From Anadara kagoshimensis (lineage: Eukaryota; Mollusca; Bivalvia; Arcoida; Arcidae), in assembly GCA_021292105.1 (NCBI GenBank), contig CM037874.1:56057539-56121538 (forward strand): DNA of 64,000 bases, read 5' to 3'. Shown here piece by piece: positions 16,444 to 57,914 of this stretch. Below the pieces are notes generated by a model that was not told the origin of the DNA, did no database searches, and saw only the letters and a list, made by a program, of their open reading frames with translations. Both the position numbers and the translations under genes were made by a program. The first letter of the stretch is position 1; each line of letters starts with the position of its first letter.

Positions 16444-17073
16444 GAAAACAATATCTTGTAAACATTTTATTGATTTTTCATTTGAATCCATAGTTGTATA
16501 ATTTTCTCATGCCATTTGGAAGTCATATATGAAATAATTGAGTTCTAAATTAGACGAAAGCAACTTGAAAATTAAAAAAAGCTATTTTTGTTCGCCCAAA
16601 ATTAAATTTTTAGTAGATGAAGTATAAATAAAGCCTTTTTTATTTTCATGTCACATTGCAGAGGTAGAAGGCTTATAACCAATAGTTACAATCAAATTAG
16701 TTTAACTTAAAATTCCATTTAATTATCTGCGAATTTGACAACACTCAAACGCTCTTTGTTTAATTTAATTTGTCTTCGTTTTTAATACAAAAATTCTTTC
16801 AAATTTGATTTACCAAGATACATTTTGCAAAGTGTTTAGTATGGATTGTTGTGAAGTTATGTTGATAGTCGGCCGAAAAAAATTAGCTCTAAAACTGCAT
16901 TACAGTTTTCAGAGATATACTTTCAGGTTCCAGGTTTTACAAGTATGTCTTGACTATGAATTTGCTTATCTTTGGCAATCTAAAGAATGCTGCTATGGAG
17001 AAAAATTCCCTGGTAACAAAGGACATAAGACGTACCCAAGAATTTTATGTGAATATGGCCATTTTGGTTCTTA

Positions 17074-25545: not shown

Positions 25546-25901
25546 CTGATTATGTACGTCTAAATTAGAGCGATACGAAAAAGTAAATCCGCAATAAAAT
25601 GGTTCTAGTGTTGTTTATTATTCATAACTATTATTATTTAATTTACAACATTAATATTTTAAAACTGAGATATATTATATCATACCAAATGTCAACATTT
25701 CTTACTTCAAAAGGTTATAGACAAAAAATGATCTGATTTGTATTTCTAAATATAAGCGCACTGGCATGGATAGGCAACGTATGGAAACTCATGACGTCAT
25801 TTGCTGAAATTTAAAATGAGAATTGAGAGATCTATGGATTATTGCAAACATAAGTACAGATGATTAATGTGCATTTTTACTGTTTATATATAGAAGCAAG
25901 A

Positions 25902-25922
25902 AAACAAAACAAAACAAAACAA
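25902..25922 (+). repeat. AAAAC microsatellite
   Basis: Short AAAAC repeat, longest in C. The matching tracts in D (about 35,003) and E (about 44,930) are shorter, and E adds a 9-bp ACATGTAAA-type repeat just after. This is a marker of ongoing slippage between units. Confidence 0.7.
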
Positions 25923-27892
25923 GCATGTAAACATATCTTGTAAACCTTTTATTGATTTTACATGTGACTCCTAATAATGTCTCGATTTGCACATGTCATT
26001 AGGAAGTCATATATAGAGTAGTCGAGTGCTAAAATAGACGAAAGTAATATGAAAATTTTAAAAAGCTATTTCTGTCGCTCAAAAATAAAATTTTAGTAGT
26101 TGATGTATAAATAGGAGCCTTTTCTTGATTAGATTACCTAAAGGTAGTAATAAACGAAAACGTTACGATTAGGATGTGATAAAGGCTTATAACCAATAGT
26201 TACAATTAAATTATTTTAACTGAAAATTCCATTTATTTTACTTTGTGAATTTTACAATTCTTAAATGCTTTTTGTTTAATCTAATTTGTCTTCGTTTTAA
26301 AACAAAAATTCGTTCAAATTTGATTTACAAACTTGATTATATCAAGATAAATTTCATAATGTGTTTAGTATGGATTGCTGTGAAATTATATTGATAGTCG
26401 GCTGAAAAAATTAGCTCTAAAAACTGTATTACTGTTTTAAGAGATATCTCTTAACTAAAATTTTCCTTATCTTTTCGCAATCTAAAAACTGCTTCTATTG
26501 AATAATACCCTGCGTATGTGTATGAGCCAAAATAACGAGTCGTAAAAAATTTACTTCAGCGAAACTAAATCTGTCTAGCACTTTGCTTTACGCCTTGGAT
26601 TTATGACTCTAGTACGTCTAGTGTTACCTTATGTTTGCTTTATGCACTTGGATCCTGGAGACAAGACATAAGACCTACCATTTTTGAAGAAACTGTAAAA
26701 TTAGACATTTTGGTCCTCACTAATAGAAATAACCCTTTGCTGCCCCCTTAAATACTTGTGATGTTTATTCCATTGAAAACTATTCCCCGTCTTTAAAGGT
26801 TTTCTTCAGCATGTCCCTTCAATGGATATTAAAGGATAAACACGTAAAAGAAGAAGTATAATTTTCAGTTTGAAGATCCGATCCAGTTTTGTTTTCGTGA
26901 CATATGGGATTTTCAAATACAACATAAAAAATAGACAAATCTTTAAGGCGTGTATTTTACATTATAAAAACTGTAATCAACTAAATCTGTGATAAAACAG
27001 GCAGTGGTAAAAAACAACCGATAGATAAATAACAGTGTTAAATCTATGATTTTTTAGCAGACCATGTGAATAAAATTAATATTTGCATCATTGAGACTTA
27101 AAACAAAAAATCAAAAGTCTATCCAAAGTTTTCTTTGAATTTGCGAAAACGCGATGTCAATGGCCTAGGTAAAAAAAACAACTAAAAGCGTTTTGTGACA
27201 AAACCTCTGACTCATTGTGTATACTTTAAGCTGTCTTGGCAGTGAATTATTGCTAATCAAAACATTTCACGACGAAAGTCGATGATAGCTGTGTTTTGTT
27301 GTAAAACATTTTTCCTAAGGAATCCTTGAAACACACACGAACTTAAATCTGAAGGCCATTGACAAATATTAGGAGGAAAGCTGAAAGTGTTTTCGTAACA
27401 AAGCCACTCAATAAATAAATGCCGTCTGCACTTTAAAATGTCTAAACAAAACAAGGACTGTAAACACAAAATATATTATTTGTCATGAATTAAAGATTTT
27501 CGTGATAATCTCATGCAGTTTCAACTTTGCACGAAATAGGGAACGCCAAATCTGCACTGGAAATTAAACCTATCTGGATATGTAGAATGTTACTGATGTT
27601 GGAATCAAATTATTTCAACATTTTGAAAAAGGGGTTTGCTTTTTGGCTATGTATATTGTAGGCGGTTATTTAGGTTGTCATCGAACCAGAAAGGATGTTA
27701 CCATGTAAAAGTCATCAGAATTTCAGCTTTTTTTGTTGTAAGAAATAAGAAGAGAACATTTGACACATTTTGCAACACATTGTTGTACCGTTTCCAAATC
27801 ATGGTTCTTCCAACTCACGATGCTTTGTTAGACATAGAACGTAGGAAGCAACTTTTATTGGTTGAATTCACCAAGGTCCTTTTTAACTCTTT

Positions 27893-28000
27893 CAGAGCAC
27901 CAAACTTCAGTGGAAATTGACGCATAAACCTAACTGCAGTTCACATTTTTAAAAGTTTTTCTATGCTGTTGTATTGTGATTTGAACATGAAACAAGGTGT
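27893..28000 (+). repeat. Old tail remnant in unit D (plus)
   Basis: AGAGCACCAAACTTC, GTGGAAATTGACGCATAAAC and TTGTATTGTGATTTGAACAT mirror the tail sequence (GGAGCACCCGGCCTC, GTGGAAGTTCACGTGTCTAA, GGATTGTGATTCGGACAT). It is present in all units at this phase. Confidence 0.5.
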
Positions 28001-28594
28001 TTTTGTTTTGGCTGTTAGAATTGTGCTTTCCCATGGATCTCTATGTACGTGTTTTGATCTTTTGGTAATTGTTATTAGGACATGGTATATTTATTTTTAA
28101 TTTATCATTATGTATTTGGTAATTGGTATTTTTGTCTGGATTTTAAAATCAATTCAAAAATTTATCTTTAATTGCCCTCTTTAAACAATTGATAAATTAA
28201 ATATGAAGAGAAATAAAATAAAAGTGCATGTTTCAAGGATTCCCTATTTGATGATTGAATTTTATAAATATTACGTAATTCATACCATGTGGCACGAGTA
28301 AATAAGTTACTATATAAAGACAATCGATAAAAATGCTTGTCTAGACAATTGCGATAATTTTTGGATTAAAATGGAGTTATCTTTTAAAGGGATTAAAAAT
28401 ACATGCATAACCCTGCTCCGCACTTATGTCATGAATAAAAAAGTTTTAATGCATCAGAAACACACTATATTTCCTGACCAAGGAGAAATTTTTTTTCTAT
28501 CATTCATTCTATGATTGTACTACACTGTATAATACTACAATTCTAGTAACAGAAAAAATTGAAAGAAAAAAAAACCACAAGCAGCGCTAGGATA

Positions 28595-28765
28595 AGAAAG
28601 TTAAACCAGATGCTTCGGAAGGGTAAGCTCATTCTGTTTAGCTAGCTACATCCAAAACATATGGATCATAATTGAGAATAAAAGAAACATGGAACTATTG
28701 TCTTTTAAACATATGAGGAAAATGTGGATTTAGAGGCAACCTTCTTCTTAACGATATTGTGACGA
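28595..28765 (-). repeat. Old tail remnant in unit D (minus)
   Basis: ACCAGATGCTTCGGAAGGGT, CTGTTTAGCTAGCTACATCC and AAAGAAACATGGAACTAT match the minus-strand tail and the adjoining region in order. Together with the plus copy ~0.6 kb upstream it makes a converging pair found in every unit. Confidence 0.55.
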
Positions 28766-28973
28766 ATGCCATAAACATTTTTGAGATTCTAGATATAAAC
28801 CAAGGTTTGATTTTCCATCACACATAAGCAATTTGATGTAGGCATCATGGTATGAAGGTTATTGTTGGAACACAAAAATAGGTTTTATAGACAGGAATTA
28901 CAAGTACCACATGTAATATGTAAGTCAAATAAACTTACCATCGCCTGTTTGATTGGAAATGTCCATATAGTCA

Positions 28974-28987
28974 GTTACCATGGAAAC
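28974..28987. promoter_or_regulatory. RFX X-box-like motif in the unit
   Basis: GTTACCATGGAAAC fits the loose X-box pattern (GTNRCC, two-base gap, RGNAAC). It recurs at the same phase in E (38,191-38,204), B (10,253-10,266, GTAACC) and F (51,556-51,569, one change) and is weaker in A (about 941). No transcription unit is visible next to it, so any binding role is speculative. Confidence 0.2.
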
Positions 28988-31900: not shown

Positions 31901-34900
31901 TCATAATCAGTTGTTCCAAAATTTGTTTTAATTGTCTTTTTTCTTTCCTTTCTGGACTATGCTGTTGAGCTAAAGTGTTTCATTTTCTTGGTTGCATTAA
32001 CTTTTCTTGACTTGCCTTAGCAATAAATAAATCGTTCACATCTCGTTTGTATTTTTAAAACCAGACGTCCCAATATTTATTTGTTTGTCTTTTTTGTCTT
32101 TTGTAAACTTTTGGTATTGTGTACTTAGTTACATTGGCAGTACCCAAGTACATGTTTTTTCAGTTTTTCAGCAACTTTAATATTATCTTGTGAATGCAGA
32201 ATTAGTAAATTATAACTGCAATGGGATGTCATTGGAAAAGCATCCCATAAACGAACCCCGGCGTAAGCATTTGGCCCCTCAGCATATGTATCTTAAAAAC
32301 AAAAAGCAAATGGCAAGTTCATTTACCCAAAGATTGTTCAATTAAAAGTTTCATATAGATCTGTTAAATATTTTCTTTGAGAAACGTCAAGGACAAAAAG
32401 TTGTCCAGAAGAAATAAAGTAAACACTATATGCCCGCCCATTCCTGATGCGCTGAAAGACATAATATTGAATATTATTTGAGCAATGAAACAAAGGTAAA
32501 TAATAATTAGTGTAAATATGTGAATCTGGAAGTAACTGGTTTGCACTCATTACTTCCATCGAGATCATCAAGGCCATCTAAACACAGACACAGACTTATA
32601 CATTAAGGGAAATACCAAAATTTGTTACTATAATGATATTGTGTAACTGCTAATGCTTCTCTAATAATACTGCATTTATTCCAAAAATATCCCGTTGCTC
32701 TGGATAATTAATAACTTATGTGGAAAAGTTTGGGTAATTATGTAAAACTATAAATGTCTTCAGAGTTATAAGCAAACAATTTTGACCTGTCCGCTTGGCC
32801 TTTTATTAGGAAAATCCTCATGTAAGATGAACTATCCAATACATGGGTAATGTTATAATATGCCCGGCTGATAATAAACAATGCATGTTCCTGTGATACC
32901 CATAAGTAAATATCTGTGTATCATATACGTATATAAACTAGGCCATTATATCAATTTATTATAAAGGTAAAGCGGACAGGTCAATGTCATTTGCCTATAC
33001 AAGTTTTTGGTTCGAGGTTATAATTGTATCTTCTAAATTTGTTTGATTGATGATACATATTTTTGTCATTTTTTGTCTGGAGAGTATGACGTACACGGTT
33101 AATTCGTTCCGTTGTTTTGTGGATTTCACTTGACTCTACACAGTGAGTGTTATTAAAACGTATGTCTTGCCTGCAGTTAAAAATATGTAGGTGGTCAAAA
33201 TGTTTCAAAATCTACATTAAACTAAGGTTCAATTTGCAAGGCTATATGTTGTACCTAGTTACTATCTTGAAGATTAGATAGTGACATACCAGATCGGCAT
33301 CTACACATGAGAAGCTACCCTATTTCACTGTGTACATACTTTGATTTTACAATTGTGTAATTTGAATATGGATTGGTATATTTATTTCTAATCTGTGGTG
33401 TTTTTTTCAGATTCAATTCGTATATAGTATTTCGGTGCGTACCCGTTGCATTACAATAGTTATTTTTACACACACGTTTTCAGCCTTAATAGTTTTATTT
33501 CTTTGGTAAATAATTTTTTTTATTATACCTCATGCTATTGCATCCTTCTGTTTATTAAGTGCTCATGTAAGCGCCGATGAGAAGAAATACCTTTTGCTAT
33601 TACGAAGCAATGTCAACCAGGAAAATGAATTCATAAAAGTTAACGATAAAATTCTTATGCTTGAAAATATTTAGCAATTTTCCCTTGCACTCAAAGTCTC
33701 CGTTAAAGTCATAGAGTACACAAACGCCAAATACACCATGAGTACAAAGTGGATTAATAAATAACTATATAGACGGCGATGTTTTACATAAAGATTTGTT
33801 ATACAATTAACTGTATTAAGACCTGCTGGGTAAATAAATAAATACATATCCATATCATGATTCAGTACATTTTAGTGGTAATCATTTCAGAACTTTTCAC
33901 ACTTATATAAAACTGTGTTATTTGTTGAAGTACGATGATACCTTGTCTGAAATTTATCTGGCAAGAGGTGTGAAAAAATGACTACATATATATGCTTCTC
34001 AACATGTACATGATGGAATCTGCTACATAATGTTACGGAACTAAACAAAACATTTTATAAAGATATGTCGATTGCACTGCTATTAGTTCAAACCCTGAAG
34101 CTTGCGATCTCAAATTTGATCAGATATGTTTATTTATTCGTTCATATCAAATCTGCACCATTTATTTAAAATAATTCAGAAAGACAGTTTTTTTTGGATG
34201 CACCAAACTCGATTTAATTTCAGATTTACCATATTAACACTCTTAAGATCACAACAACGGCTAAACCTTGAACCCAGTAACCGCGAGTCGGAAACCTTAA
34301 AAACTCCATCATGTATATCCACAATAGACATAACTGGGATATAATAAGTAATGTTTTAAAGAGAAAAATGTTTTTAATTATTTGCAGTTATTGGTATTAA
34401 TATTAAACTACTGTACACACCATTAACTCGCATTTTGTTGTAATAGATGATAGTTAAGGTATTTGAGTGCAAACATTTACATGAAAGCTAATGCAAAACT
34501 GAACGCATATATGTATACATATTTTTAAATTTTAAAAAATGTAGCTACTTAAAAATGGATGCTTACATTTCGAATTCCGCAGGACTCGACGTAATTTCCC
34601 TAGGGGAAGTTCAAATGTTTAACAAATCTGACTTCAAAGGTTATTTCTGATTATGTACGTCTAAATTAGAGCGATACGAAAAAGTAAATTCGCAATAAAA
34701 TGGTTCTAGTGTTGTTTAATATTCATAACTATTATTATTTAATTTACAACATTAATATTTTAAAACTGAGATATGTTATATCATACCAAATGTCAACATT
34801 TCTTACTTCAAAAGGTTATAGACAAAAAATGATCTGATTTGTATTTCTAAATATAAGCGCACTGGCATGGATAGCTAACGTATGGAAACTCATGGCGCCA

Positions 34901-37900
34901 TTTGCTGAAATTTAAAATGAGAATTGAGAGATCTATGGATTATTGCAAACATAAGTACAGATGATTAATGTGTATTTTTACTGTTTATATATAGAAGCAA
35001 GAAAACAAAACAAAACAAACATGTAAACATATCTTGTAAACCTTTTATTGATATTTCATGTGACTCCTAATAATGTCTCGATTTGCACATGTCATTAGGA
35101 AGTCATATATAGAGTAGTCGAGTTCTAAAATAGACGACAGTAATATGAAAATTTTAAAAAGCTATTTCTGATCGCTCAAAAATAAAATTTTAGTAGTTGA
35201 TGTATAAATAGGAGCCGTTTCTTGATTAGATTACCTAAAGGTAGTTATAAACGAAAACGCCACGATTACGATGAGATAAAGGCTAATAAACAATAGTTAC
35301 AATTAAATTATTTTAACTGAAAATTCCATTTATTTTACTTTGTGAATTTTACAATTCTTAAATGCTTTTTATTTAATTTAATTTGTCTTCGTTTTAAAAC
35401 AAAAATTGTTTCAAATTTGATTTACAAACTTGATTATATCAAGATAAATTTCATAAAGTGTTTAGTATGCATTGCTGTGAAATTATATTGATAGTCGGCT
35501 GAAAAAAATTAGCTTTAAAAACTGCATTACTGTTTTTAGAGGTATCTCTTAACTAAAATTTTCCTTATCTTTTCGCAATCTAAAAACTGCTTCTATTGAA
35601 TAATACCCTGAGTATAATGTATGAGCCAAAATAATGAGTCGTAAATAATTTACTTCAACGAAACTAAATCTGTCGTACACTTTGCTTTACGCCTTTGATT
35701 TACGACTCTAGTACGTCTAGTGTTACCTTATGTTTGCTTTATGCACTTGATCCCTGGCGACAAGAGACATATGACCTAATACTTTTTTAAGAAACTGTAA
35801 AATTAGATATTTTGGCCCTGACCAATAGAAATAACCCTTTGCTGCCACGTCAAATACTTGTGATGTTTCTTTCATTGAAAACTATTTCCACCGTCTTTAA
35901 GGCTTTCCTTCAGCATGTCGATTCAATGGATATTCAAGGATATAAAACGTAAAAGAAGAAGTATAATTTTCAGTTTGTTGATCCGATCCAGTTTTGTTTT
36001 CGTGACATATGGGATATTTTCAAATACAAGATAAAAAAATAAGACAAATCTTTTAGGCGTGTCTTTTACATTGAAAAACGTGTAATCAACTAAATCTGTT
36101 ATAAAACAGACAGCGGTAAAAAACAACCGATAGATAAATAACAGTGTTAAATCTATGATTTTTATAATAGACCATTTTCAAAATATTAAACTTTGCATCA
36201 TTGAGACGTCTTAAAACAAAAAAAATCAAATAATCTATCCTAAAGTTTCCTTTGAATTTGCGAAAACGCGATGTAAATGGCCTAGGTTAAAAAACAACTG
36301 AAAGCGGTTTGTGACAAAACGTCTGGCTCTTGTGTATTCTTCAAGCTGTCTTAGCAGTGCATTATTGTTAATCAAAACATCTCACGAAGAAAGACGATGA
36401 TAGCTGTGTTTTATTGTAAAAACATTATCTTTAAGGAATCCTTGAAACATACACAAACTTAAATCTGAAGGTCTTCGACAAATACTAGAAGGAAAGCTGA
36501 AAGTGTTTTCGTAACAAAGCCACTCAATAAATAAATGCCGTCTGCACTAAACAGAACAAGGCTGTAAATACAAAACATTATTATTATTGTCATGAATTAA
36601 AGTTTTTCGTGATAATCTCACTGCAGCTTCAACTTTGCACGAAATAGTAAACGTCAAATCTGCACTGGAAATTAAACCCATCTAGATATGTAGAATGTTA
36701 CTGATGTTGGAATCAAATTATTTCAACATTTTGAAAAGGGGTTTGCCGATTGGTTATGGCTATTAATTAAAACATATAGCTATCCTGACATTGTAAACGT
36801 TATTGTGGTGGAACCATTGCATTTTAACATTTTGAAAATTGTTTTGTTTTTGGCTATGTATATTGTGGGCGATCATTTAGGTTGTCATCGAACCAGAAGG
36901 AATGTTACCATGTAAAAGGCACTAGGATTTCAGCTTTTTTGTCGTAAGAAATAACAAGAAAACATTTGACACACTGTGTAACACATTGTTGTACCGTTTC
37001 CAAATCATGGTTCTTCCAACTCACGATGCTTTGTTGGACATAGAACATAGGAAGCAACTTTCATTGGTTGAATTCACCAAGGTCCTTTTTTACTCTTTAG
37101 AGCACCAAACCTCGCTTCTCTAGTTGAAGTTGACGCATAAACCAAACTGCAGTTCACATTTTTAAAAGTTTTTCTATGCTGTTGTATTGTGATTTGAACA
37201 TGAAACAAGGTGTTTTTGTTTTGGCTGTTAGAATTGTGCTTTACCATGGATCTCTATGTACGTGTTTTGATCTTTTGGTATTTTTATTAGGACATGGTAT
37301 GTTTATTTTTAATTTTATCATTATGTGTTTGGTAATTGGTATTTTTATCTGGATTTTAAAATCAATTCAAAAATTTATCTTTAATTGCCCTCTTTGAACA
37401 ATTGATAAATTAAATATGAAGAGAAATAAAATAAAAGTGCATGTTTCAAGGATTCCCTATTTGATGATTGAATTTTATAAATATTACGTAATTCATACCA
37501 TGTGGCACGAGTAAATTAGTTACTATATAAAGACAATCGATAAAAATGCTTGTCTAGACAATTGCGATAATTTTTGGATTAAAATGGAGTTATCTTTTAA
37601 AGGGATTAAAAATACATGCATAACCCTGCTCCGCACTTATGTCATGAATAAAAAAGTTTTAATGCATCAGAAACACACTATATTTCCTGACCTAGGAGAA
37701 TTCTTTTTTTTTCTATCATTCATTCTATGATTGTACTACACTGTATAATACTACAATTCTAGTAACAGAAAATAATTGAAAGAAAAAACCACAAGCAGCG
37801 CTAGGATAAAGAAAGTTAAACCAGATGCTTCGGAAGGGTAAGCTCATTCTGTTTAGCTAGCTACATCCAAAACATATGGACTCATAATTGAGAATAAAAG

Positions 37901-40900
37901 AAACATGGAACTATTGTCTTTTAAACATATTGAGGAAAATGTGGATTTAGAGGCAACCTTCTTCTTAACGATATTGTGACGAATGCCATAAACATTTTTG
38001 AGATTCTAGATATAAACCAAGGTTTGATTTTCCATCACACATAAGCAATTTGATGTAGGCATCATGGTATGAAGGTTATTGTTGGAACACAAAAATAGGT
38101 TTTATAGACAGGAATTACAAGTACCACATGTAATATGTAAGTCAAATAAACTTACCATCGCCTGTTTGATTGGAAATGTCCATATAGTCAGTTACCATGG
38201 AAACAAAAACAAACAATTTTTTATTTTTGTGGTGTGGAGGAAGGTTTTTTATTTATATCGAGTAATCGGATGATAAAAATCTCAATCAGGACTTAAAGCA
38301 ATATTACTCCGCCCTACCCTTCTCCAACCTCTTAAATCTGAAGCACTTGGTCTCTCCATGTAATCTTTGCCAAATAATATTGTTTATACCATAATTGTTA
38401 ATAGTCGTCTGAACACAAACGCGAATACACGACCTTGCTGTTGTATTACAACGACGCAAGATTGATATTTTCAGCTGAATGACAAAGATTTTGATACATA
38501 CATCACCAGTCATCATAAAAAACGTAACAGGACAACAAGATAAACTTCACAGCAAAACAAAGTGACAGAAACATAAATGAATGAGCAATAAGGAAAGCAT
38601 CAAAACAAAAGAATCGATAGAAAGAAAAAATGACTGAATATGAAGGAGAAATAAAAACATAAGGGCAAAACGCAGAGATGGAAAGAAAAAACATAAATAA
38701 ATCACTTACCGAGAAACATTTTATTTATTTTGCACCCAAAAGACTCTTTAGATCATTGAGTGTATTATGTAAGTTTTGATTATTTTCAGTGAAGATGATA
38801 TTAGATTAAATTATTAAAAATATTGTACAGACAGCAAAAAGTATCTAATAGGATTTTTCGGTAAAGAAATGTGTTATATCTTCAAGTGGTATTTTTTGGT
38901 ATGTGCTAATAGCATGTGTATATTAACTTTAAACGAATTTTACTTATTTACACTGTAAGCAGTTTGTTAAAGTATTATAGTATCATATTTAACAGACTGT
39001 ATCTTTATGCAATGTTCGCAAACAAACCAAAAGTTAATTTAGTTCATTTCATTGCGTTTTGTACTAAAATATTAATGAGATACTGTTCTGAAATGTTCCC
39101 AAATAAAAGATTGGAGAGACCCGGTGTTGTAGTGACAGCTATTTCTTCTGACATGTTTGCAAAAAAGTGTTTTAGGTAATTGTAAGCTGTTTTGTACTAT
39201 ATGCCTTTTGTACGGGTTTCTTCTAAACTTGTTTCTGTGTTGCCACCAGTTTGTCGTTTGTTGGTGTAAAGGAAACATATTTTGCAAGTATTTATCTTTT
39301 TAAGTTCCAGAGAAAGTCTAGCTGCTAGAAAGGACACTTTTTGCCAAATTTAAGACTTCATCATGATTGACTAGATGGATATCTCAAATAAAACTTGATG
39401 TTTTGATTGATATAATTCAGATCTACAATGCTCGTTTTTTTAACATGTTCTTTCTCTTTCAGTTCATAACATGATTAATCTTTTGTAAATACATTGGAGC
39501 TATTATAATCCGTAAATGTGAGAGGTAACGTGTTTCTAATATTTCCTTTTCATTTTAAATGCAATTTTAAATCTTTTGTAACAATATCATTTTTATCTGT
39601 GATTTTTGTCGATAAATCTGTTTGGCGTTGTTGTACTCCAACTTCAGTGGTTTTTAAACCCAGATGCTTGTGTTTTACGTTGTCTTGCTCTCTAAAACAT
39701 AATTTTTAGAATATGAAAACACAAAAGGAAAACAGGTGAATTTTTGCGAATTTTTCTGACAATCTTGACCGTTTTGTGTGTATGATGAACAATTTGAAAC
39801 TGCCACTGACAAACTATGTGCATGCATAATATATAATATAAAACATATGTGTATTAAAATTATACCCCACTGTGTAATTCACTAAACTAATATAATTAAA
39901 AAGGCATTTGTGTAAGCTTGTTTTCAAATGTGAGAAATACATATTGTTGAAGATAGAACAACATAATTTGACCAGGAGAGTTTTCTTCTAAGTTACATGT
40001 ATGGTATATGCTCATAGTTTATAAATGTGATTGAGTCATTGTCATAGATAATGTCATACTACAGCCCTTTTGTGACACTAAGCAAAAAAATTAAATTCTT
40101 CGACAAGAATAAAAACGCGGAACCAGGTATCGAACTCATAGTTGCTAGATACCTTGTGTTGTAAACCTAAAAACTAATTAGCAAAAACTCATTGATATAG
40201 CTGGTATATGAATGATGAAATAATTAAGAAATAAAAATATCAATGGAAGTATATTTGTTATAGCCCCAAATTGTCGCCGAATTTAAGGTTATCATACACA
40301 AACAATACTGGTCCATGCCCAGACCAAAAATACAAAATAAAAAATGGTTTGAAAACTGGAAAATTCAGCTTCCACTAGAGAAATGAGTCCAAGTGTTCTA
40401 GAAGAGAACCACATATTGTGTAAGTAGCTACAATGGCCACGCGAGTATTCAAAATTGATAATGGAAGAAACATGAAACTATGTGTCTTTATAATCTATGG
40501 TTATGTTTGATACACAAACATTATACTTATCAACAATATTTTGAAGACTTCCAAGCGTCGTTATGTAAGAAAAATCAGATTGCACTCAACTTTGTATCAC
40601 AGAACACGTCGTTCAATTGCACCAATGATTAAATACACAAATAGTTGTTATATTAATGTATTGCAATGATTTTATTAGAATACCACATTTAATCCAAGAA
40701 TGTCTTGCTGTGATCATCATTAGTCAGATTAATTAATAACTCAGTGTTTTTTGTTCTTATTTACCCAGGTTTTATGGCTGGCTAAATGACTCCAAGTCAA
40801 TAAATGTCGGATGTGACTTTTATATATTTATTTTAAACGTTTTCAAAATGCTTTACTTCGCGCAGTCTCTGATGTTGGATTCGCAGGGCATCGGCAAATT

Positions 40901-42030
40901 AAAGCTAACTCGCTAATTAATCTTGTCGGTAGAATTATATTAAAAAGTCCTAATTTTGGTTAGTATATTCTTGTCCTGTCTTTGCAAACCACTAGTTCAC
41001 ATGTTGTCGGTAGTTTAATTATCAATAGCATTCAAATTTTTTTTGTATGTTCTTGTCTAGAGTTGGTCGTTTTTGATGAACTTTATTGTTTGGTGTTTGG
41101 TTAGATTAGCTTTTCTTTTCTTGACTTTACCGTTAAATAATCGTTCCCATTGTTGGTAGTTTCATAATCAGTTGTTCCAAAATTTGTTTCAATTGTCTTT
41201 TTTCTTTCTTTTCTGGACTATGCTGTTTAGCTAAAGTGTTTCATTTTCTTGGTTGCATTAACTTTTCTTGACTTGCCTTAGCAATAAATAAATCGTTCAC
41301 CTCTCGTTTGTATTTTTAAAACCAGACGTCCCAATATTTATTTGTTTGTCTTTTTTGTCTTTCGTAAACTTTTGGTATTGTGTACTTAGTTGCATTGGCA
41401 GTACCCAAGTACATGTTTTTTCAGTTTTTCAGCAACTTTAATATTATCTTGTGAATACAGAATTAGTACATTATAACTGCAATGGGATGTCATTGGAAAC
41501 GCATCCCATAAACGAACCCCGGCGTAAGCATTTGGCCCCTCAGCATATGTATCTTAAAAACAAAAAGCAAATTGCAAGTTCATTTACCCAAAGATTGTTC
41601 AATAAAAAGTTTCATATAGATCTGTTAAATATTTTCTTTGAGAAACGTCAAGGACAAAAAATTGTCCAGAAGAAATAGAGTAAACACTATATGCCCGCCC
41701 CTTCCTGATTCGCTGAAAGACATAATATTGAAAATTATTTGAGCAATGAAACAAAGGTAAATAATAATTAGTGTAAATATGTGAATGTGGAAGTAACTGG
41801 TTTGCACTCATTACTTCCATCGAGATCATCAAGGCCATCTAAACACAAACACAGACTTATACATTAAGGGAAATACCAAAATTTGTTACTATAATTATAT
41901 TGTGTAACTGCTAATGCTTCTATAATAATACTGCATTTATTCCAAAAATATCCCGTTGCTCTGGGTAATTAATAACTTATGTGGAAAATTTTGGGTAATT
42001 ATGTAAAACTATAAATGTCTTCAGAGTTAT

Positions 42031-42475
42031 CTTAAATTAGGAGACTATGTAAATGTCATCTATCCTAGTGAGCTTGAAATAAAAGACACGACTGATTCCT
42101 CAAGTTCTGCTTCATATTTAGACTTATACCTGAATTATGACGCACAAAAAAAAGCTACATTTGAAACTTTATGACAAACGTGATGACTTCAATTTTTCTA
42201 TTGTCAACTTTCCTTTTTTATGCAGCAATATACCTGCTTCTCCTGCTTATGGTGTATTTGTTTCCCAATTAATACGCTATGGTAGAGATTGTTCCCACTA
42301 CGGGGACTTTGTACAACGAAGTAGGCTGCTTGCAAATAAATTGTTGACTCAGGCATATTGCAAGCCTAGGCTTATCAAGGCCCTCAAAAAGTTTTATGGC
42401 CGTCATCACAGTATTGTTGATAAGTTTGATGTCTCTGTGTCCAGGATTGCCTCGGATATATTTGACGTCTCATAG
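42031..42475 (+). pseudogene. C-terminal region of an RT-linked retroelement protein, frameshifted
   Basis: Two overlapping open frames. The first runs from 42,031 (GDYVNVIYPSELEIKD..., then SASYLDLYL) to a stop at 42,163. The second starts one base out of phase at about 42,137 and runs to the TAG at 42,473, with KLYDKRDDFNFSIVNFPF, SNIPASPAYGVFVSQLIRY and KKFYGRHHSIVDKFDVSVS. The switch falls in a run of eight A (about 42,147-42,154), consistent with a one-base slip. The motif order matches the region downstream of the YIDDL-type catalytic box in invertebrate retroelement proteins. The catalytic RT core itself is absent because of 5' truncation. The class (Penelope-like, LINE or other) cannot be decided from this piece. 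Confidence 0.7.
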
Positions 42476-42679
42476 TTCCATGTTCCTTTCACACAATTTT
42501 GATTACACACGTGACGGGTGTAGCTAGCTAAACAGGAGGTGCTTACCCTTCCGGAGCACGCGGCCTCACTTCCCTGGTGGAAGTTCACGTGTCTAACCTA
42601 ACTTGTCAGTTCCAAAGTTTTTACTTTGCTTCTGGATTGTGATTCGGAAATTGATAAGTATGTTTGTTTTTGATTATAA
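42031..42679 (+). mobile_element. 5'-truncated RT-linked retroelement fragment in unit E
   Basis: Inserted after CAGAGTTAT at a site that is uninterrupted in A (about 4,580), C (about 23,655) and D (32,769). TTAT occurs on both sides (42,027-42,030 and 42,680-42,683), a possible 4-bp target duplication, although the right side lacks two bases of the empty site. It holds the end of a coding region, a non-coding tail with GGAGGTGCTTACCCTTCCGG and CACTTCCCTGGTGG, and the terminus GTATGTTTGTTTTTGATTA shared by the other copies. It is the longest copy in the window. Confidence 0.8.
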
Positions 42680-45357
42680 TTATGCAAACAATTTTGACCT
42701 GTCCGCTTGGCCTTTCATTAGGAAATCCTCATGTAAGATGAACTATCCAATACATGGGTAATGTTATAATATGCGCGGCTGATAATAAACAATGCATGTT
42801 TCCTATGATACCTGTGTATCATATACGTATATAAACTAGGTTATTATATCAATTTATTATAAAGGTAAAGCGGATAGGTCAATGTCGTTCGCCTATACAA
42901 GTTTTTGGTTCGAGGTTATAATTGTATCTTCTAAATTTATTTGATTGATGATACATATTTTTGTCATTTTTTGTCTGGAGAGTATGACGTACACGGTTAT
43001 ATTCGTTCCGTTGTTTTGTGGATTTCACTTGACTCTAAACAGTGAGTGTTATTAAAACGTATGTCTTGCCTGCAGGTTAAAATATGTAGGTGGTCAAAAA
43101 TGTTTCAAAATCTACATTAAACTAAGGTTCAATTTGCAAGGCTATATGTTGTACCTAGTTACTTTCTTGAAGATTAGATAGTGACATACCAGATCGGCAT
43201 CTACACATGAGAAGCTACCCTATTTCACCTTGTATATACTTTGCTTTTACAATTGTGTAATTTGAATATGGATTGGTATATTTATTTCTAATCTGTGGTG
43301 TTTTTTCAGATTCAATTCGTATATAGTATTTCGGTGCGTGCCCGTTGCATTACAATAGTTATTTTTACACACACGTTTTCAGCCTTAATAGTTTTATTTC
43401 TTTGGTAAACAATTTTTTTCATTATACCTCATGCTATTGCATCCTTTTGTGTATTAAGTGAACATGTAAGCGCCGATGAGAAGAAATACCTGTTGCCATT
43501 ACGAAGCAATGTCAACCAGGGAAATGAATTCATAAAAGTTATACAAATATATAAAAGTTATATAAACGATACAATGCTTATGCTTTGAAAATATTTAGCA
43601 ATTTTCCCTTGCACTCAAAGTCTCCGTTAAAGTCATAGAGTACACAAACGCCAAATACACCATGAGACAAAGTGGATTAATAAATAACTATATAGACGGC
43701 GATGTTTTACATAAAGATTTGTTATACAATTAACTATATTAAGACCTGCTGGGTAAATAAATAAATACATATCCATATCATGATTCAGTACATTTTAGTG
43801 GTAATCATTTCAGAACTTTTCACACTTATATAAAACTGTGTTATTTGTTGAAGTACGATGATACCTTGTCTGAAATTTATCTGGCAAGAGGTGTGAAAAA
43901 ATGACTACATATATTTGCTTCTCAACATGTACATGATGGAATCTGCTATATAATGTTACGGAACTAAACAAAACATTTTATAAAGATATGTCGATTGCAC
44001 TGCTATAAGTTCAAACCCTGAAGCTTGCGATCTCAAATTTGATCAGATATGTTTATTTATTCGTTCATATCAAATCTGCACCATTTATTTAAAACAATTC
44101 AGAAAGACAGTTTTTTTGGATGCACCAAACTCAATTTAATTTCAGATTTACCATACTAACACTCTTAACATCACAACAACGGCTAAACCTTGAACCCAGT
44201 AACCGCGAGTCGGAAACCTTAAAAACTCGATCATGTATATCCACAATAGACATAACTGGGATATAATAAGTAATGTTTTAAAGAGAAAAATGTTTTTAAT
44301 TATTTGCAGTTATTGGTATTAATATTAAACTACTGTACACACCATTAACTCGCAATTTGTTGTAATAGATGATAGTTAAGGTATTTTGAGTGCAAACTTT
44401 TACATGAAAGCTAATGCAAAACTGAACGCATATATGTATACATATTTTCAAATTTTAAAAAATGTAGCTACTTAAAAATGGATGCTTACATTTCGAATTC
44501 CGCAGGACTCGACGTAATTTCCCAAGGGGAAGTTCAAATATTTAACAAATATGACTTCAAAGGTTATTTCTGATTATGTACGTCTAAATTAGAGCGATAC
44601 GAAAAAGTAAATCCGCAATAAAATGGTTCTAGTGTTGTTTAATATTCATAACTATTATTATTTAATTTACAACATTAATATTTTAAAACTGAGATATGTT
44701 ATATCATACCAAATGTTAACATTTCTTACTTCAAAAGGTTATATACAAAAAATGATCTGATTTGTATTTCTAAATATAAGCGCATTGGCATGGATAGGCA
44801 ACGTATGGAAACTCATGACGCCATTTGCTGAAATTTAAAATAAGAATTGAGAGATCTATGGATTATTGCAAACATAAGTACAGATGATTAATGTGTATTT
44901 TTACTGTTTATATATAGAAGCAAGAAAACAAAACAAAACAAACATGTAAACATGTAAACATGTAAACATATCTTGTAAACCTTTTTTGATGTGACTCCTA
45001 ATAATGTCTCGATTTGCACATGTCATTTAGAAGTCATAAGTAGAGTAGTCGAGTTCTAAAATAGACGAAAGTAATATGAAAATTTTATGAAAATTTTAAA
45101 AAGCTATTTCTGATCGCTCAAAAATAAAATTTTAGTAGTTGATGTATAAATAGGAGTCTTTTCTTGATTAGATTACCTAAAGGTAGTTATAAACGAAAAC
45201 GCCACGATTAGGATGTGATAAAGGCTTATAACCAATAGTTACAATTAAATTATTTTAACTGAAAATTCCATTTATTTTACTTTGTGAATTTTACAATTCT
45301 TAAATGCTTTTTGTTTAATCTAATTTGTCTTCGTTTTAAAACAAAAATTGGTTCAAA

Positions 45358-45378
45358 GGAGGTTGTGCGCTATGGGCC
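45358..45378 (+). repeat. Left terminal inverted repeat of the Spy-like element
   Basis: 21 bp beginning GGAGGTTGTGC. It matches the reverse complement of 48,879-48,899 at 19 of 21 positions (differences at positions 12 and 17). Similarity stops after GGCC. Confidence 0.85.
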
Positions 45379-45578
45379 CCTCCCGGCACCACAATTTTAA
45401 TAATTTTTTGAAGGGGAAAATATCTTTGATATGTTACCGAACACATTGCCAATTATACAAATGAAATAAATCCATAAAAGTTTTACACAAAAAATATTTT
45501 AAACTGTCGTCATGTATCGCTAAAGTACAGGGTGTTTGTCCTATTTTTCGAAATATTGACGTTTTTCCGGTACATTTC

Positions 45579-45705
45579 TTCAAATTAAACTATGAGCGCA
45601 GTCGTGCTCCAAAAAGATATTTAAACTATAAACTTATGTTAAATAAAAGAACCTTGTGTTAAAATATTTTTGTGGAGCACGACTGCGCTCATAGTTTAAT
45701 TTGAA
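45579..45705. repeat. 33-bp perfect inverted repeat with 61-bp spacer
   Basis: Left arm 45,579-45,611 (TTCAAATTAAACTATGAGCG... ending GTGCTCCA) and right arm 45,673-45,705 are exact reverse complements. The AT-rich spacer is 61 bp. It may be a nested MITE or foldback inside the Spy-like element, or a structural subterminal repeat. No target duplication is obvious. Confidence 0.9.
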
Positions 45706-45841
45706 AAAATCGTCAATAAAATTGTCCACTAAAGTCGGGAAAGTATGGGGTAAGGAAAATTGTGTAGCACAATGTGGCTAAAGTGAACATTTACTTATAT
45801 TTTCTTTCTGTTATAATAAGCAAAAAAATTAAAATATTTTT

Positions 45842-46024
45842 GTGATTTTTGTTGATTACATATATTTTAACAAAACAGAATCGATAAAATTTTATGCATT
45901 TATAAATAACTGTTTAAAAACAACGCCAGTAACCGTTTATGCTATAGAGCGTAATGCTACACATTTTAGAAATCGACGACGTCGTCAAGAACAACAACAA
46001 CAACTGGTCACACCGGCTACGTAG
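45842..46024 (+). pseudogene. Possible relic of a transposase N-terminus (weak)
   Basis: A 60-codon frame ends in a basic, glutamine-rich stretch (HFRNRRRRQEQQQQLVTPAT) and then a stop. It lies about 0.5 kb from the left end of the Spy-like element, where a transposase could begin, and arginine-rich segments are common near the start of Harbinger-type transposases. No DDE residues or downstream continuation are visible. It may equally be a chance frame. Confidence 0.15.
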
Positions 46025-46412
46025 ATCGTTTAACAACATTGATACACAATTCACGCTACACATTCGCGATTTCAGTGATGTGCATATAATTATGTAACTT
46101 TTCTTTTTCATTTTATTTCATGGATACTGTTATTTTGTGTCTGATAATATGGTGATACGAAAATTGGCACACATATCCTGACTCCCGACAGTCGGGACAG
46201 AGTTCAGTGACACCGAGATGAAAGTCACTTGTACCGGTTTGTGTGTATGGTTTACAATGTAGCGATCATAATTCCATTAATTTTGAGAAGCGGTTTTTGA
46301 AAAACACGGCAAATCAAGCAATAAAAAAAATAAAATTCAGGAATGCCAGTTGGGAGCGTAGATCGGATTACACACGGTGGTCAACTATAAAAATCTATGT
46401 TTACATCCAATA

Positions 46413-46483
46413 TCGTGGTGGGGCAATAGGTAGCGGTGTGGACTTAGAAACTGACGACCCGGGTTCAAATCCCGATGAAGACG
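46413..46483 (+). mobile_element. tRNA-like sequence / SINE head inside the Spy-like element
   Basis: An A-box-like GGGGCAATAGGTAGCGG is followed about 45 bp later by a B-box-like GGTTCAAATCC (46,462-46,472) set in CCCGGGTTCAAATCCCG, the usual spacing of an internal pol III promoter. A T-rich tract follows at about 46,491. It is more likely a SINE head than a functional tRNA, because I could not form a convincing acceptor stem. Confidence 0.4.
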
Positions 46484-47888
46484 TTAATGCTTTTTTTTTA
46501 TTTATTTTTTTAAATATATCATTTTTGAAAAAATATAAATTATATTTTTATAAATTATTAACATTACATTCGATGAGGATAAATTAAAACGCTCTCGCAC
46601 CTCTCCACACAACTCAATTTTTGTTAAATATTACACATGTATATTAGGTTCAGGTGCTTTTATTATTTTCATTTTTTCTCTCTCGCACCTCTTAATTATT
46701 TGTTTCTTTTTTAAAAAAATTTAAACTTTTATTATAAATCTGGTTTTTAATTATATATATTTTTAATTTTACCATTTCCTTTTTTCTGCAGCATTTTAAA
46801 AAAAATTATTATCACAAATCAGGAGGTTTTATTTATTAATTTTAATTTCTTTTCTCTCTCTCGTCTTTTCAGGGAATTTTGGAATTATTGAAATACATGG
46901 TTTTTTTTAAATAATTCACCCAGTTTATTTACGTATAGAAGTTTTCATCATAAGGTATTGTTAGATCTTGTTCAAAATACAAATACATGTATACACATTA
47001 GTTAAAAATTGCTAATATTGGAATGGTGGACTTTTAAGATAATTTGACCCTCCAAAAACTGAACCTCGTCACTAATTACTAGTATTAGTACCCTCTCAAT
47101 GAAACTTATGTAGTCTGTCTTTTTGTTTCCCAAAAGTTTTATCCTCATCGCCTCCTTAAGCGCTTATAAATATTTATGTCTGTCCATCCTTTCACTGTGT
47201 TCCCAAAATGATGTTGTCTTATGAAAGAAGATCCATCCTGCATAATTTACATTTGGTGGTTCAATACAATGATCAAGGGACTAGCACCACTAACATTTAC
47301 ACACATGGTATTCTAACTTGGAGAAGGAGACCTTGATGGTGCTACTTTTCAGTAAAAGTGGAAGTGAGACCCACCTTTCACAAATTAGTAAGACTACTCT
47401 GTATACATATCCTGGTAATTATTTTTATTTACATGTACATGCATATGGGATGTTTAACACTGATGAACTATTAAACTCACGTTGATTGGTTGGTGATTAA
47501 GACATCTGTAAAGATTATTTCTATTATACAGAGGCACCCAGCTTGCCTGGTTTTCTGTACCATCAAGTAACTGATCAGAGAAAAACAGTGAATTTCAGGA
47601 AGGAAGCCTATAAACATTCTTGCATTAAATACCATCCCAAGTTCCATTTGCATGAGCTGCAATGATCCCTATTTGGATGATATTTAGGCATTTTCGACCG
47701 ATCTCCGACGGGGTATTGCAGTTGTGTCTTTTGGTGGTCACATCTCATTGGTTGAAATAGAAAGGGAGATAATAACGACATTCCATTGTACTGATTTTGC
47801 ACTCTAGAAAAGAAACTAACCGACCAATTTTGATGAAAATTAGTTTCTAGGTACAATCTTAGATGTTGTACATGTTGCGCTAAAAGTC

Positions 47889-48170
47889 GGTCATTGTGAC
47901 CTTGTTTTTATGGTCTGGTGATTTTCTTCGATTTTGATCAAACTTAGTTCATATCTACGACTTTATATGCTATACATATTGCAACACAAAAAAGATCATT
48001 GTGACTTAATTTTTAGTCAGTTATTTTCTTTGATAATATAAAGTTTAATATGACAATTTTGATGAAACGTGGTCGTAAGTACAATTTCAATGATGTATGT
48101 GTTTCAACACAAAGAAGGTCATTGTGACCTACTTTTTCATGGCCTAGTGAAATTTTCTTAAAAGTTGCAG
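47889..48170 (+). repeat. Three imperfect ~105-125-bp repeats (GTCATTGTGAC type)
   Basis: G(G/A)TCATTGTGAC recurs at 47,889, 47,994 and 48,117. Each is followed or preceded by similar text (TTTTGATCAAACTTAGTTCA or TTTTGATGAAACGTGGTC, then GCAACACAAA or TCAACACAAA). It is a short, decayed tandem repeat within the Spy-like element, of a type frequent in invertebrate genomes. Confidence 0.7.
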
Positions 48171-48398
48171 TACCTTAGATAGTAAAACATGAATGTGCAT
48201 ATGGAAACATCATAATTATATAAAAATAACAATTTCCAGAAGTTATTACATCTTTAGCTTCATTCAAATACACCTATCATTGCTACTGCTAACACTATCA
48301 GTTCTTTTCCAATGTTTATTGGGGTGACTTACCACGCGATTGACCCCTGCTCAAACGCTATTTCTAGTTTCAATCATCTGTTCCCATCAATTCCATAT

Positions 48399-48597
48399 GT
48401 ACACTTGTATATTTAGCAATCCGTTGCTATGGACAATTAGTTGCCATGGTAACAAATAATGTTTTATTTTATGACTTTATACATTATGTTAACCATCCAT
48501 TGATAAGGGCACACATGTACCTATTTTTATATCTATACAAGTATATTTAACCATCCGTTGCTATGGACATTTCGTTGCCATGGTGACAAATAATGTT
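48399..48597 (+). repeat. 134-bp-period duplication with X-box-like palindromes
   Basis: The stretch containing CCGTTGCTATGGACA and GTTGCCATGGT(A/G)AC occurs at 48,399-48,463 and 48,534-48,597, with AAATAATGTT closing both. GTTGCCATGGTAAC (48,440-48,453) is close to an ideal RFX X-box palindrome. A further GTTGCTAAGCAAC lies at 48,767-48,779. Whether this is regulatory or just repeat structure cannot be told. Confidence 0.65.
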
Positions 48598-48878
48598 ATA
48601 TTTTACGTTCTCGAACTTAATATTTACTTTTATTGATAAATGTAGTAATGTAGAAAGATTATTCACACAAAAACATTAGAATGGGATAAAATCTGCCACA
48701 ATATGTTAAATTCATAATGCGAAATGTCTATATTTAAGATTTGCTAAGGGTCAGTTGCCATGCACCGTTGCTAAGCAACAGTATATCAGAACACTTAAAT
48801 TTTTATGTTTTTACAAAGACCAAATCTTGGACTAAATTCTACAGAAAAATCATTATATTCTGGTATGGGGCCAAAAAT

Positions 48879-48899
48879 GGCCTATAGTGCACAACCTCC
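48879..48899 (-). repeat. Right terminal inverted repeat of the Spy-like element
   Basis: Ends GCACAACCTCC and is followed directly by TTTGATTT of unit E. Pairs with 45,358-45,378 at 19 of 21 positions. A short GGCC-containing inverted motif (GGGGCCAAAAATGGCC) lies just inside. Confidence 0.85.
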
Positions 48900-51800
48900 T
48901 TTGATTTACAAACTTGATTATATCAAGATAAATTTCATAAAGTGTTTAGTATGGATTGCTGTGAAATTATATTGATAGTCGGCTGAAATAATTAGCTCTA
49001 AAAACTGCATTACTGTTTTAAGAGATATCTCTTAACTAAAATTTTCCTTATCTTTTCGCAATCTAAAAACTGCTTCTATTGAATAATACCCTGAGTATAA
49101 TGTATGAGCCAAAATAACGAGTCGTAAATAATTTACTTCAACGAAACTAAATCTGTCTAGCACTTTGCTTTACGCCTTGGATTTATGACTCTAGTACGTC
49201 TAGTGTTACCTTATGTTTGCTTTATGCACTTGGATCCTTGAGACAAGACATAAGACCTACCATTTTTAAAGAAATTGTAAAATTAGACATTTTGGTCCTC
49301 ACTAATAGAAATAACCCTTTGCTGCCCTCTTAAATACTTGTGATGTTTATTTCATTGAAAACTATTCCCCGTCTTTAAAGGTTTTCTTTAGCATGTCCCT
49401 TCAATGGATATTAAAGGATATAACACGTAAAAGAAGAAGTATAATTTTCAGTTTGAAGATCCGATCCAGTTTTGTTTTCGTGACATATGGGATATTTCCA
49501 AATACAACATAAAAAATTAGACAAATCTTTAAGGCGTGTATTTTACATTAATTAAAACCTGTAATCAACTAAATCTGTGATAAAACAGGCAGTGGTAAAA
49601 AACAACCGATAGATAAATAACAGTGTTAAATCTATGATTTTTTTAACAGACCAATGTGAATAAAATTAAAATTTGCATCTTTGAGACTTAAAACAGAAGA
49701 AAAATCAAACAGTCTATCCTAAAGTTTTCTTTGAATTTGCGAAAACGCGATGTCAACGACCTAGGTAAAAAAAGAACTAAAAGCGTTTTGTGACAAAACC
49801 TCTGACTCATCGTGTATACATTAAGCTGTCTTAGCAGTGAATTATTGTTAATCAAAACATTTCACGACGAAAGTCGATGATAGCTGTGTTTTGTTGTAAA
49901 AACATTTTCCCTAAGGAATCCTTGAAACACACACGAACTTAAATCTGAAGGCCATTGACAAATATTAGGAGGAAAGCTGAAAGTGTTTTCGTAACAAAGC
50001 TACTCAATAAATAAATGCCGTCTGCATTTTAAAATGTCTAAACAAAACAAGACTGTAAACACAAAACATTATTACTATTGTCATGAATTAAAGATTTTCG
50101 TGATAATCTCATGGGCAGTTTCAACTTTGCACGAAATAGGGAACGCCAAATCTGCGCTGGAAATTAAACCTATCTGGATATGTAGAATGTTACTGATGTT
50201 GGAATCAAAATATTTCAACATTTTGAAAAAGGGGTTTGCTTTTTGGCTATGTATATTGTGGGCGATTATTTAGGTTGCCATCGAACCAGAAAGGATGTTA
50301 CCATGTAAAAGGCACCAGAATTTCAGCTTTTTTTGTTGTAAGAAATAAGAAGAGAACATTTGACACATTTTGTAACACATTGTTGTACCGTTTCCAAATC
50401 ATGGTTCTTCCAACTCACGGTGCTTTGTTGGACACAGAACGTAAGAAGCAACTTCTATTGGTTGAATTCACCAAGGTCTTTTTTAACTCTTTCAGAGCAC
50501 CAAACCTCACTTCTCTAGTTGAAGTTGACACATAAACCAAACTGCAGTTCACATTTTTAAAAGTTTTTCTATGCTGTTGTATTGTGATTTCAACATGAAA
50601 CAAGGTGCGTTTGTTTTGGCTGTTATAATTGTGATTTACCATGGATCATTATGTACGTGTTTTGATCTTTTGGTATTGTCATTAGGACATGATATGTTTA
50701 GTTTTAATTTTATCATTATTTATTTGGTAATTGGTATTTTCACCTTTAATTTCCCTCTTTGAACAATTGATAAATTAAATATGAAGAGAAATAAAATAAA
50801 AGTGCATGTTTCAATGATTCCCTATTTGATGATTGAATTTTATAAATATTACGTAATTTATACCATGTAGCACGAGTAAATTAATTACTATATAAAGACA
50901 ATCGATAAAAATGCTTGTCTAGACAATCGCGATATTTTTTGGATTAAAATAGAGTTATCTTTTAAAGGGATTAAAAATACATGAATAACCCTGCTCCGCA
51001 CTTATGTCATGAATAAAAAAGTTTTAATGCATCAAAAACACACTATATTTCCTGACCTAGGAGAATTCTTTTTTTTCTATCATTCATTCTATGATTGTGC
51101 TACACTGAATGATACTACAATTCTAGTAACAGAAAACAATTGAAAGAAAAAAAAACAAGCAGCGCTAGGAGAAAGAAAGTTACACCAGATGCTTCGGAAG
51201 GATAAGCTCATTCTGTTTAGCTAGCTACATCCAAAACATATGGAATCATAATTGAGAATAAAAGAAACATGGAACTATTGTCTTTTAAACATATTCTGGA
51301 AAATTGTTGATATACAGGCATCTTTTTCCTCAACTATATTGTGATGAAGGCCATAGAACTTTTTGAGATTCTAGATATAAACCAAGGTTTGATTTTCCAT
51401 TACACATAAGCAATTTGATGTAGGCATCATGGTTTGAAGGTTATTGTTGGAACACAGAAATAGGTTTTATAGACAGGAATTACAAGTACCACATGTAATA
51501 TGTAAGTCAAATAAACTTACCATCGCCTGTTTGATTGAAAATGTCCATACAGTCAGTTACTATGGAAACAAAAAAACATTTTTCATTTTCGTGGTGTGGA
51601 GGAAAGTTCTTTTAGTAATGAGATGATAAAAATCTCAATCAGGACTTAAAGCAATATTACTCCACCCTACCCTCCCGTAACCTCTTAAATCTGAAGCACT
51701 TGATCTCTCCATATAATCTTTGCAAAGTTATATTGTTTACACCATCGTTTTAATAGTCGTCTGAAAATATATGCTAACACTCACGGTATTGCTTTATATA

Positions 51801-53945: not shown

Positions 53946-56764
53946 ACGATTATCAAATAATAATGCACAGTGTTACATTGGGGAAGCGTAGTGTAATCTG
54001 GCTGGCTCTGATCGTAAAATATATACATGTTAATGTAGAAAGCTTGCACTAATAACCCACCACTGAGATAATAAAAGTCATCTAAACACAGACACAGATA
54101 CATACTTTGAGGGAAATACCAATTATTGTTACTATAATGATATTGTGTAACTGCTTAATGCTTCTATAATAATACTGCATTTATTCCAAAAATATCCCGT
54201 TGTGTGTAGTCATCATCATTACTCTGGATAATTATTAACTCGTGTGGGTAATTTTGTATTAAATTTGTAAGACTATAAATGTCTTCATTGTATCTGTTTT
54301 GAGGCTAGTATAGTATCTTTTTAAATTTGTTTGATTGATGAGCACTATAGGTGAAATATGTTTTTGTCATTTTTGTTTAGAGAATTTGACGTGAGCATTA
54401 ACACTTCATTTGTCCCACGGGTTTTACATTTCACGTGACCTTGGATATACCAAATCGGTGTTAATTAAACGTTTTCTTGTCTGTAGATTGCACGTAGGTG
54501 TTCGGAAAAGTTTAATAATATACTGTATAATAGATTCAAATAGGTTTAATTTGCAAAGAAAGGTGGCATCTAATCGCTTTCTGAGTAATACACTTCGGTT
54601 TGTTGAAGATTGCATAGTGACGCACCAGATGGTTTTCTCCAAAGATGATAAACTATTGGCTTACAGTGTAAGATTTGTTTTTACTCTATCAAACATTTCT
54701 TTCTTTAATTTAAACAATCCAAATTGTTGTCTTATGCCATTAGATAAGTTGATCATCTACAATCACTACCTAATTTCCCTTGTGGAAATTCCTATGTTTA
54801 ATTTAATTTGTGAAATTTATACTTTTAAAGATTTTCTTTGATTGTAATTTAAACATGTAATGACATGATTGCTTTTGATTGCCCACCCTGCATACTGAGT
54901 AAAAAATTTAAGCGTCGATAACAAGCACTATCTTCTGCCATGATGAGACAATGTAATCACGAAAAATGAATACAGAAAACTGAATAATAATCCAATATCT
55001 AAACCACACATTCAGCACTCAAAGTCCCCGTTTAAGTCAAAGAGTACACACACGTGAAATACTCCATCAGACAAAGTGGATTAAACAAATAACTACAAAG
55101 AAGGCGATGTTTTATATAAGTTTTTATACAGTAAAGACCTCCTGGGTATATACATAAATGCATATCAACATTATGATTCAGTAAGTTGTTGTGTTAATTT
55201 TTACTCAACTTATATACATAAAAATAAAATTGTGTTATTTGTTGAAATGCGATTGTGTCTTGTCTGCACTTTATCTGGCTGAGTTGCAAAAATTGAGCTT
55301 CTGATAGGTAGATGATGGAATTTGCTTCATTATATAACAAAAATACTAATCAAATGCTGCTAGACATGTTCGATGCACTTAGGCACGACTAATACTAGAA
55401 ATGTATACCAAATATTATCGTTTTTATATATTTATCTGATCGATCACATTGAAGTATATACCACTTTATTATTTTTTAAAAATGGAAAACAGTATGGAGT
55501 CTCAGGTTTAATTAAAGATGTTCCTCTGATCGGTTACTTTTCAATCAAAACCAGTTATTTAAAATAATTCGGAAAGTTGGTTTTGAAAATGTTTTATTCA
55601 TCAGCCCCAATTTAATTTGAGATGTCCTTCGCGTCAATTAAAATGTTTGTGCACTTAACAAAGTACGAAAATTCACTTTAATGATTGATTCGGTACCCAT
55701 GACCGAGTGATATGCAAGTTAATGCAAACTAGGAAAGTGAATCCTGAAAGTGAATAATATAAATATCAATGCTTGAAAATATTCAGCATATTTTCTTTGC
55801 ACGCAAAGTCTCCGTTATAGTCATAGAGTACACAAAATGCATTATCACACAAAGTGGATTAATAAATAACTATAATGACGGCAATGTTTTACAAATAGAT
55901 TTGTTATACAATTAAATATATTAAGACCCGCTGGGTATAGGCATGAGTACATATCCACATTATTATTCCGTACGTTTACACCTATAAAAATTGATTGTGT
56001 CTTGTCTGGATTTATCTCGTTAATGTGTACAAAATGTCTACATATCTATAGTTATCAACATATACATAATGCGACCTGTTAAATAATATAACAAAAATAT
56101 TCACATTTAATAAAATGCTTTTAGAAATATTTGATGTACCAAGTCGCATATAATAATGAAAACGAAAAAGTTAAAGATCACCGTTTTAATTGGACATATT
56201 CATTCAAATATTCCGTCAAATTGGAAATCTATATCGCTTATTTATAAATTAATTGTAAAAGACAGCATCAAACTCGATCTAATTGGAAATGTCTATCTAG
56301 TAGGCTGGAATTTTCGATACAACTTTCTAGTAATTAAAAAGTAAGCACATTATCTATTCACTTCATTAGCCTACTAGCACCCTTAAAACCACAGTTACTG
56401 CTAAAACTTGAACCCAATAATCGGAAACCTTAACAACTCATTAATGTATATCCACAATATACATAACTAGCATATGATAAGTGATGTTTTAAGGAGAAAA
56501 GTGTTTTTAATTATTTGCAATTACTGATATAAATATGAAATCACTTTATACATCATAAACTCTCTTATTTTGTTGTACTAGATGACAGTTAAGATCTTCT
56601 TGAGTACAAACCTCTTAATGAAAATTAATGCAAAACAGCAACTGAAACGGAATGCATGTATGAATTATGTACGCATAAATGATTGCATATTTTGAAATTT
56701 AGACAAAAGTGTTGAAAAACAAATACAGGCATATACGTTTTGTTATATTGCCCTCAAAGATATG

Positions 56765-57801: not shown

Positions 57802-57824
57802 CAAACACTTCCTTTTGGGCTAAG

Positions 57825-57830
57825 AGATAG

Positions 57831-57914
<84 letters not shown>
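57825..57914 (+). repeat. Compound GATA / GA microsatellite
   Basis: About six GATA repeats pass directly into about 32 GA repeats. It lies 23 bp after the tRNA-like relic, where a SINE tail would be expected, so it may have grown from one. Confidence 0.95.

Follow-up and report, generated by a model that had tools for sequence, protein, structure and literature searches.

An AAA|TTT insertion of a Spy-like element and three paralogous empty sites within one tandem array

The window, which is the whole stretch of 64,000 bases of DNA analysed here, contains an inserted block of 3,542 bp (45358-48899, GC 0.322) that splits an AAATTT sequence into AAA and TTT, as well as three homologous sites in which AAATTT is uninterrupted. 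At the filled site (site A) the insertion neither duplicated nor removed any host base, and the block, which is delimited by terminal inverted repeats, is probably a non-autonomous cut-and-paste DNA transposon moved by a Spy-type transposase. With one AAATTT site filled, its three paralogues empty and an unambiguous border, these 64 kb form a tidy natural experiment. Its value is that of a clear and well-controlled example of published Spy behaviour, together with an element to annotate, and not that of a new phenomenon. The missing duplication is not new for Spy, since new insertions in human cells, aligned to their original loci, have already been reported to show no target duplication (PMC11304231).

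Table 1. Coordinates of the inserted element, the split and empty target sites and the internal repeats (positions in the window)
Feature	Position	Strand	Remarks
Inserted element, taken as non-autonomous	45358..48899	.	Missing from three homologous sites; no Pfam row at E<=1 in 6 frames
Left terminal inverted repeat, 21 bp	45358..45378	+	Weaker match on to 45391
Right terminal inverted repeat, 21 bp	48879..48899	-	19/21 identical to left; weak match from 48866
AAA half of split target site	45355..45357	+	
TTT half of split target site	48900..48902	+	
Empty site B, AAATTT uninterrupted	16801..16806	+	
Empty site C, AAATTT uninterrupted	26316..26321	+	
Empty site D, AAATTT uninterrupted	35413..35418	+	
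Fold-back in element	45574..45710	+	53-nt arms, 92% complementary, 31-nt spacer
Three degenerate direct repeats in element	47825..48160	+	Spacing ~105 and 123 bp
Two 77-nt direct repeats in element	48395..48605	+	87% identical

Borders of the inserted block and its empty sites

To look for homologous junctions, the 300 bp on either side of the block were compared with the whole window by blastn (E<=1e-3). The matches were site A itself, sites B, C and D, and one 70-bp piece of the left flank (54783-54850) which falls short of the junction. When both flanks were joined into 600 bp, they showed 95.8% identity to site C over 600 aligned positions and 94.5% to site D over 601; site B matched in two pieces, one of 402 aligned positions with 75.1% identity and another of 66. 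The regions 6.8-9.0, 56.5-60.5 and 60-64 kb were also aligned with higher sensitivity and gave no further homologous junction, which leaves a total of one filled and three empty sites found in the window. The matches doing better than the shuffles here were rejected: all of them involve the right flank of site B, at least 270 bp off the junction, and they look like a repeated retroelement-like tail such as that at 42.6 kb.

The filled site reads TTCAAA|TTTGAT, and sites B, C and D show the unbroken TTCAAATTTGAT. Aligned to B, C and D, the joined flanks of A show 16 columns across the junction, TTCAAATTTGATTTAC, with neither a gap nor a substitution in any of the four rows. The first base of the element is G and the last one is C, whereas the left flank ends with A and the right one starts with T, which keeps the border from sliding. 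Because the junction is gap-free across the four sequences and the border cannot be moved, no base was duplicated or lost, which agrees with what the sequence-only reading had claimed from the three empty sites (3/3 gap-free). The alignment of the four sites also confirmed its placement of the block exactly between AAA and TTT, with AAATTT intact in B, C and D. That reading had further regarded the three empty sites as an internal control; all of them are indeed intact, but they are paralogues by descent, and represent one pre-insertion state three times instead of three insertion events.

The borders were set by the empty sites, independently of the inverted ends, and the inverted ends previously noticed fall exactly on both of them (45358 and 48899). 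The element starts with GGAGGTTGTGCGCTATGGGCC and ends with the reverse complement of GGAGGTTGTGCACTATAGGCC. These 21-bp terminal inverted repeats agree in 19 of 21 positions, the leading 11 without exception, and weaker similarity extends out to 34 nt (26/34). When 2,000,000 pairs of positions were drawn at random from the window, four of them reached 19/21 and six had the leading 11 bases identical. Read from the flanks, the insertion point is surrounded by a palindrome of 10 bp, TCAAA|TTTGA. The AAATTT sequence is found 104 times in the 64,000 bases of the window, and the chance of a random insertion point falling at AAA|TTT is ~0.0016.

The 11-bp end, with at most one mismatch allowed, showed no further copy within the 64-kb window, and the comparison of the block with the window (E<=1e-3) gave the self-match only. 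The exact end pattern was absent from the viral contigs and prokaryote genomes searched, where a second copy was hardly expected. In addition, the block had no similarity in the phage records searched, a result of little weight, as Spy is reported only from invertebrates (PMC11304231). The records of the window's own genome were possibly excluded from the viral, prokaryote and phage searches, and plasmids and E. coli lay outside their scope.

The tandem array carrying the sites

The window shows a tandem array from ~200 to 57,000, with units of roughly 9-10 kb and more diverged related stretches on either side of B, C and D. With the homologue of the insertion site taken as the boundary, the array divides into B (16804-26318), C (26319-35415), D (35416-45357) and E (48900 onward). 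Across the shared positions of a four-way alignment, units C and D are 96.4% identical, and B is 89.8% identical to each of C and D. In the same alignment, unit E shows 69-78% identity to the other units over its length, and its first 3.4 kb match C at 89.6%.

A Pfam scan of a complete sibling unit (26319-35415), in all six frames, gave no accepted protein family; its single row, XPA_N, was rejected at an E value of 0.38, its 11.3 bits falling short of the cut-off of 27.1. The open frames of unit C (at least 35 codons) were compared with the distant repeats by tblastn, dropping the matches that start within 16,000-48,900 or contain stops. The remaining matches are short, found on both strands and often in overlapping frames, and we read them as apparently non-coding similarity. 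Rfam gave nothing at gathering scores within the window.

Unit D carries an insertion of ~650 bp (42031-42680) which B and C lack at the corresponding points. Within it, positions 42137-42475 hold a 112-aa open frame without a Pfam match, which we take to resemble a retroelement protein. No Pfam row was obtained for the three plus-strand frames of 42031-42680, or for six out of 22 open frames listed with at least 80 aa. Relatives of this insertion, ~350-390 bp long and 92-94% identical, are located at 3301-3681 (minus strand) and 12669-13015 and bear a GTTTGTTTTTGATTA-like end. The GC content is low (0.313) and retroelement-like tails recur in the window; together with the lack of protein families in the stretches scanned, this is suggestive of a eukaryote, and the types of repeats might hint at a mollusc. 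A microsatellite of period 4 (AGAG) with 22.8 copies is located at 57823-57913.

Content of the element

None of the six frames of the block matched a Pfam family at E<=1, in a scan where stops are read as X and the HMMER filters drop most weak matches, which weak remnants could escape. The longest stop-to-stop frame of the block has 121 codons, a length equalled by 22 of 200 dinucleotide shuffles, and is chance-like. The missing Pfam families and the chance-like longest frame rule out an intact autonomous copy, and no more than that. The block is taken as a non-autonomous element, in which a badly decayed transposase remnant could escape the Pfam scan.

Several smaller features were found inside the element (Table 1). 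The fold-back is possibly a nested MITE: as single-stranded DNA, the region 45550-45725 has a folding energy of -53 kcal/mol, where shuffles average -13.4 (z -13.2), and no clear target duplication was seen by eye around 45574-45710. Two Rfam candidates on the fold-back were rejected, MIR3932 (E 0.00068, 33.4 bits against a gathering score of 150) and SpF43 (E 0.63, 21.4 against 70). Furthermore, positions 46414-46480 resemble a tRNA, with a B-box-like GGTTCAAATCC and a T run after it, a stretch which we presume to be perhaps the head of a SINE; neither ARAGORN nor Rfam made a call on it.

Origin of the insertion and likeness to known systems

The block is probably a Spy-mobilised non-autonomous element of the ordinary kind. 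The sequence-only reading had stated that it fits Spy, and the AAA|TTT target, the missing duplication and the inverted ends do match; as to membership of the family, it is the structure that points to it. The label "Spy-like" seems fair for an element assessed by its structure and one insertion. It is the target habit that points to the mobilising enzyme, and a single insertion cannot establish the target rule of a family. In the proposed mechanism, a Spy-type DDE transposase, encoded by a full-length relative at another genomic locus, would act in trans, bind the inverted ends and cut the element out. It would join both ends at directly opposite positions, in the middle of the palindrome TCAAA|TTTGA. 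Such joinings without a stagger would leave no single-stranded gap to be filled, and hence no target duplication would arise.

The block might also be a non-autonomous member of another cut-and-paste group (PIF/Harbinger, ISL2EU, Pangu or Nuwa) which lost its target duplication here, piggyBac and Tc1/mariner being further candidate groups; we consider this unlikely. GG starts are usual in ISL2EU and in most NuwaII, and Pangu and NuwaI are likewise reported with GG or GGG; furthermore, these related groups likewise prefer AT-rich targets (PMC4482050). Because such starts are common to several groups, the GG start of the block does not single out Spy. However, the junction is gap-free against each of the three empty sites, and it would take a coincidence to lose exactly one short copy and leave AAATTT split in its middle. 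That a lineage unrelated to the Spy transposases independently reached zero-stagger insertion in a palindromic AT-rich target seems quite improbable.

The element could have been ancestral in the array unit and lost seamlessly from the remaining sites. An exact excision without target duplication could restore a perfect AAATTT, and the sequences alone allow such a loss; the words "footprint" and "excision" are absent from the main text of PMC11304231. Gain and seamless loss would give the same sequences, and it is parsimony alone, with site B empty, that favours insertion as the simpler history. Several exact losses would be required in place of one insertion, and site B, although more diverged (~75% around the junction), is equally clean. 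Since the most diverged site is also empty, a single gain in A would be the simplest history and the empty state is likely ancestral, which makes loss very unlikely.

Helitrons produce no target duplication and often insert between A and T, and canonical Helitrons start with TC, end with CTRR and have no terminal inverted repeats. A Helitron-like element would share with the block the missing duplication and the A|T insertion point; however, the block has no TC...CTRR ends and shows terminal inverted repeats, a symmetrical pair GGAGG...CCTCC with the leading 11 bases identical, and we regard this origin as highly improbable. An assembly artefact or a joining of unrelated DNA is extremely improbable, as a repetitive array is open to mis-assembly but mis-joining would not give inverted ends at both borders together with an exact split of AAATTT.

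A non-autonomous element moved by a Spy-type transposase, which is the origin we favour, can be compared with the published Spy group of the PHIS superfamily, described from 182 elements in 172 species, all of them invertebrates, with four elements in Mollusca (PMC11304231). Intact Spy elements have 1165-5910 bp with one open reading frame and terminal inverted repeats of 5-691 bp, and both the length of the block and that of its inverted repeats lie inside these ranges (PMC11304231). In Crassostrea virginica, the Spy terminal inverted repeat is given as 26 bp in one passage, and as 27 and 26, in uncertain order, in another (PMC11304231). Most Spy elements are flanked by AAA and TTT, and ~60% of cgSpy insertions are found in AAWTT (PMC11304231). 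The block shares with Spy the terminal inverted repeats, the lack of target duplication and the AAA|TTT insertion, this last seen in one insertion alone; in contrast, intact Spy has a transposase open reading frame with DNA-binding and DDE domains, and no transposase gene was found in the block.

The other groups are told apart by their target duplications. Those of Pangu (ANT), NuwaI (CWG) and NuwaII (TNA within C|TNA|G) have been described, and paralogous empty sites were already applied to Pangu and Nuwa (PMC4482050). PIF/Harbinger is a related group with mostly short terminal inverted repeats and AT-rich targets and a 5'-TWA-3' duplication (PMC4482050), which is missing in the block. ISL2EU, reported as the sister clade of Spy (PMC11304231), has ends that usually start with GG, as those of the block do, and a 5'-AT-3' target duplication (PMC4482050), which the block does not show.
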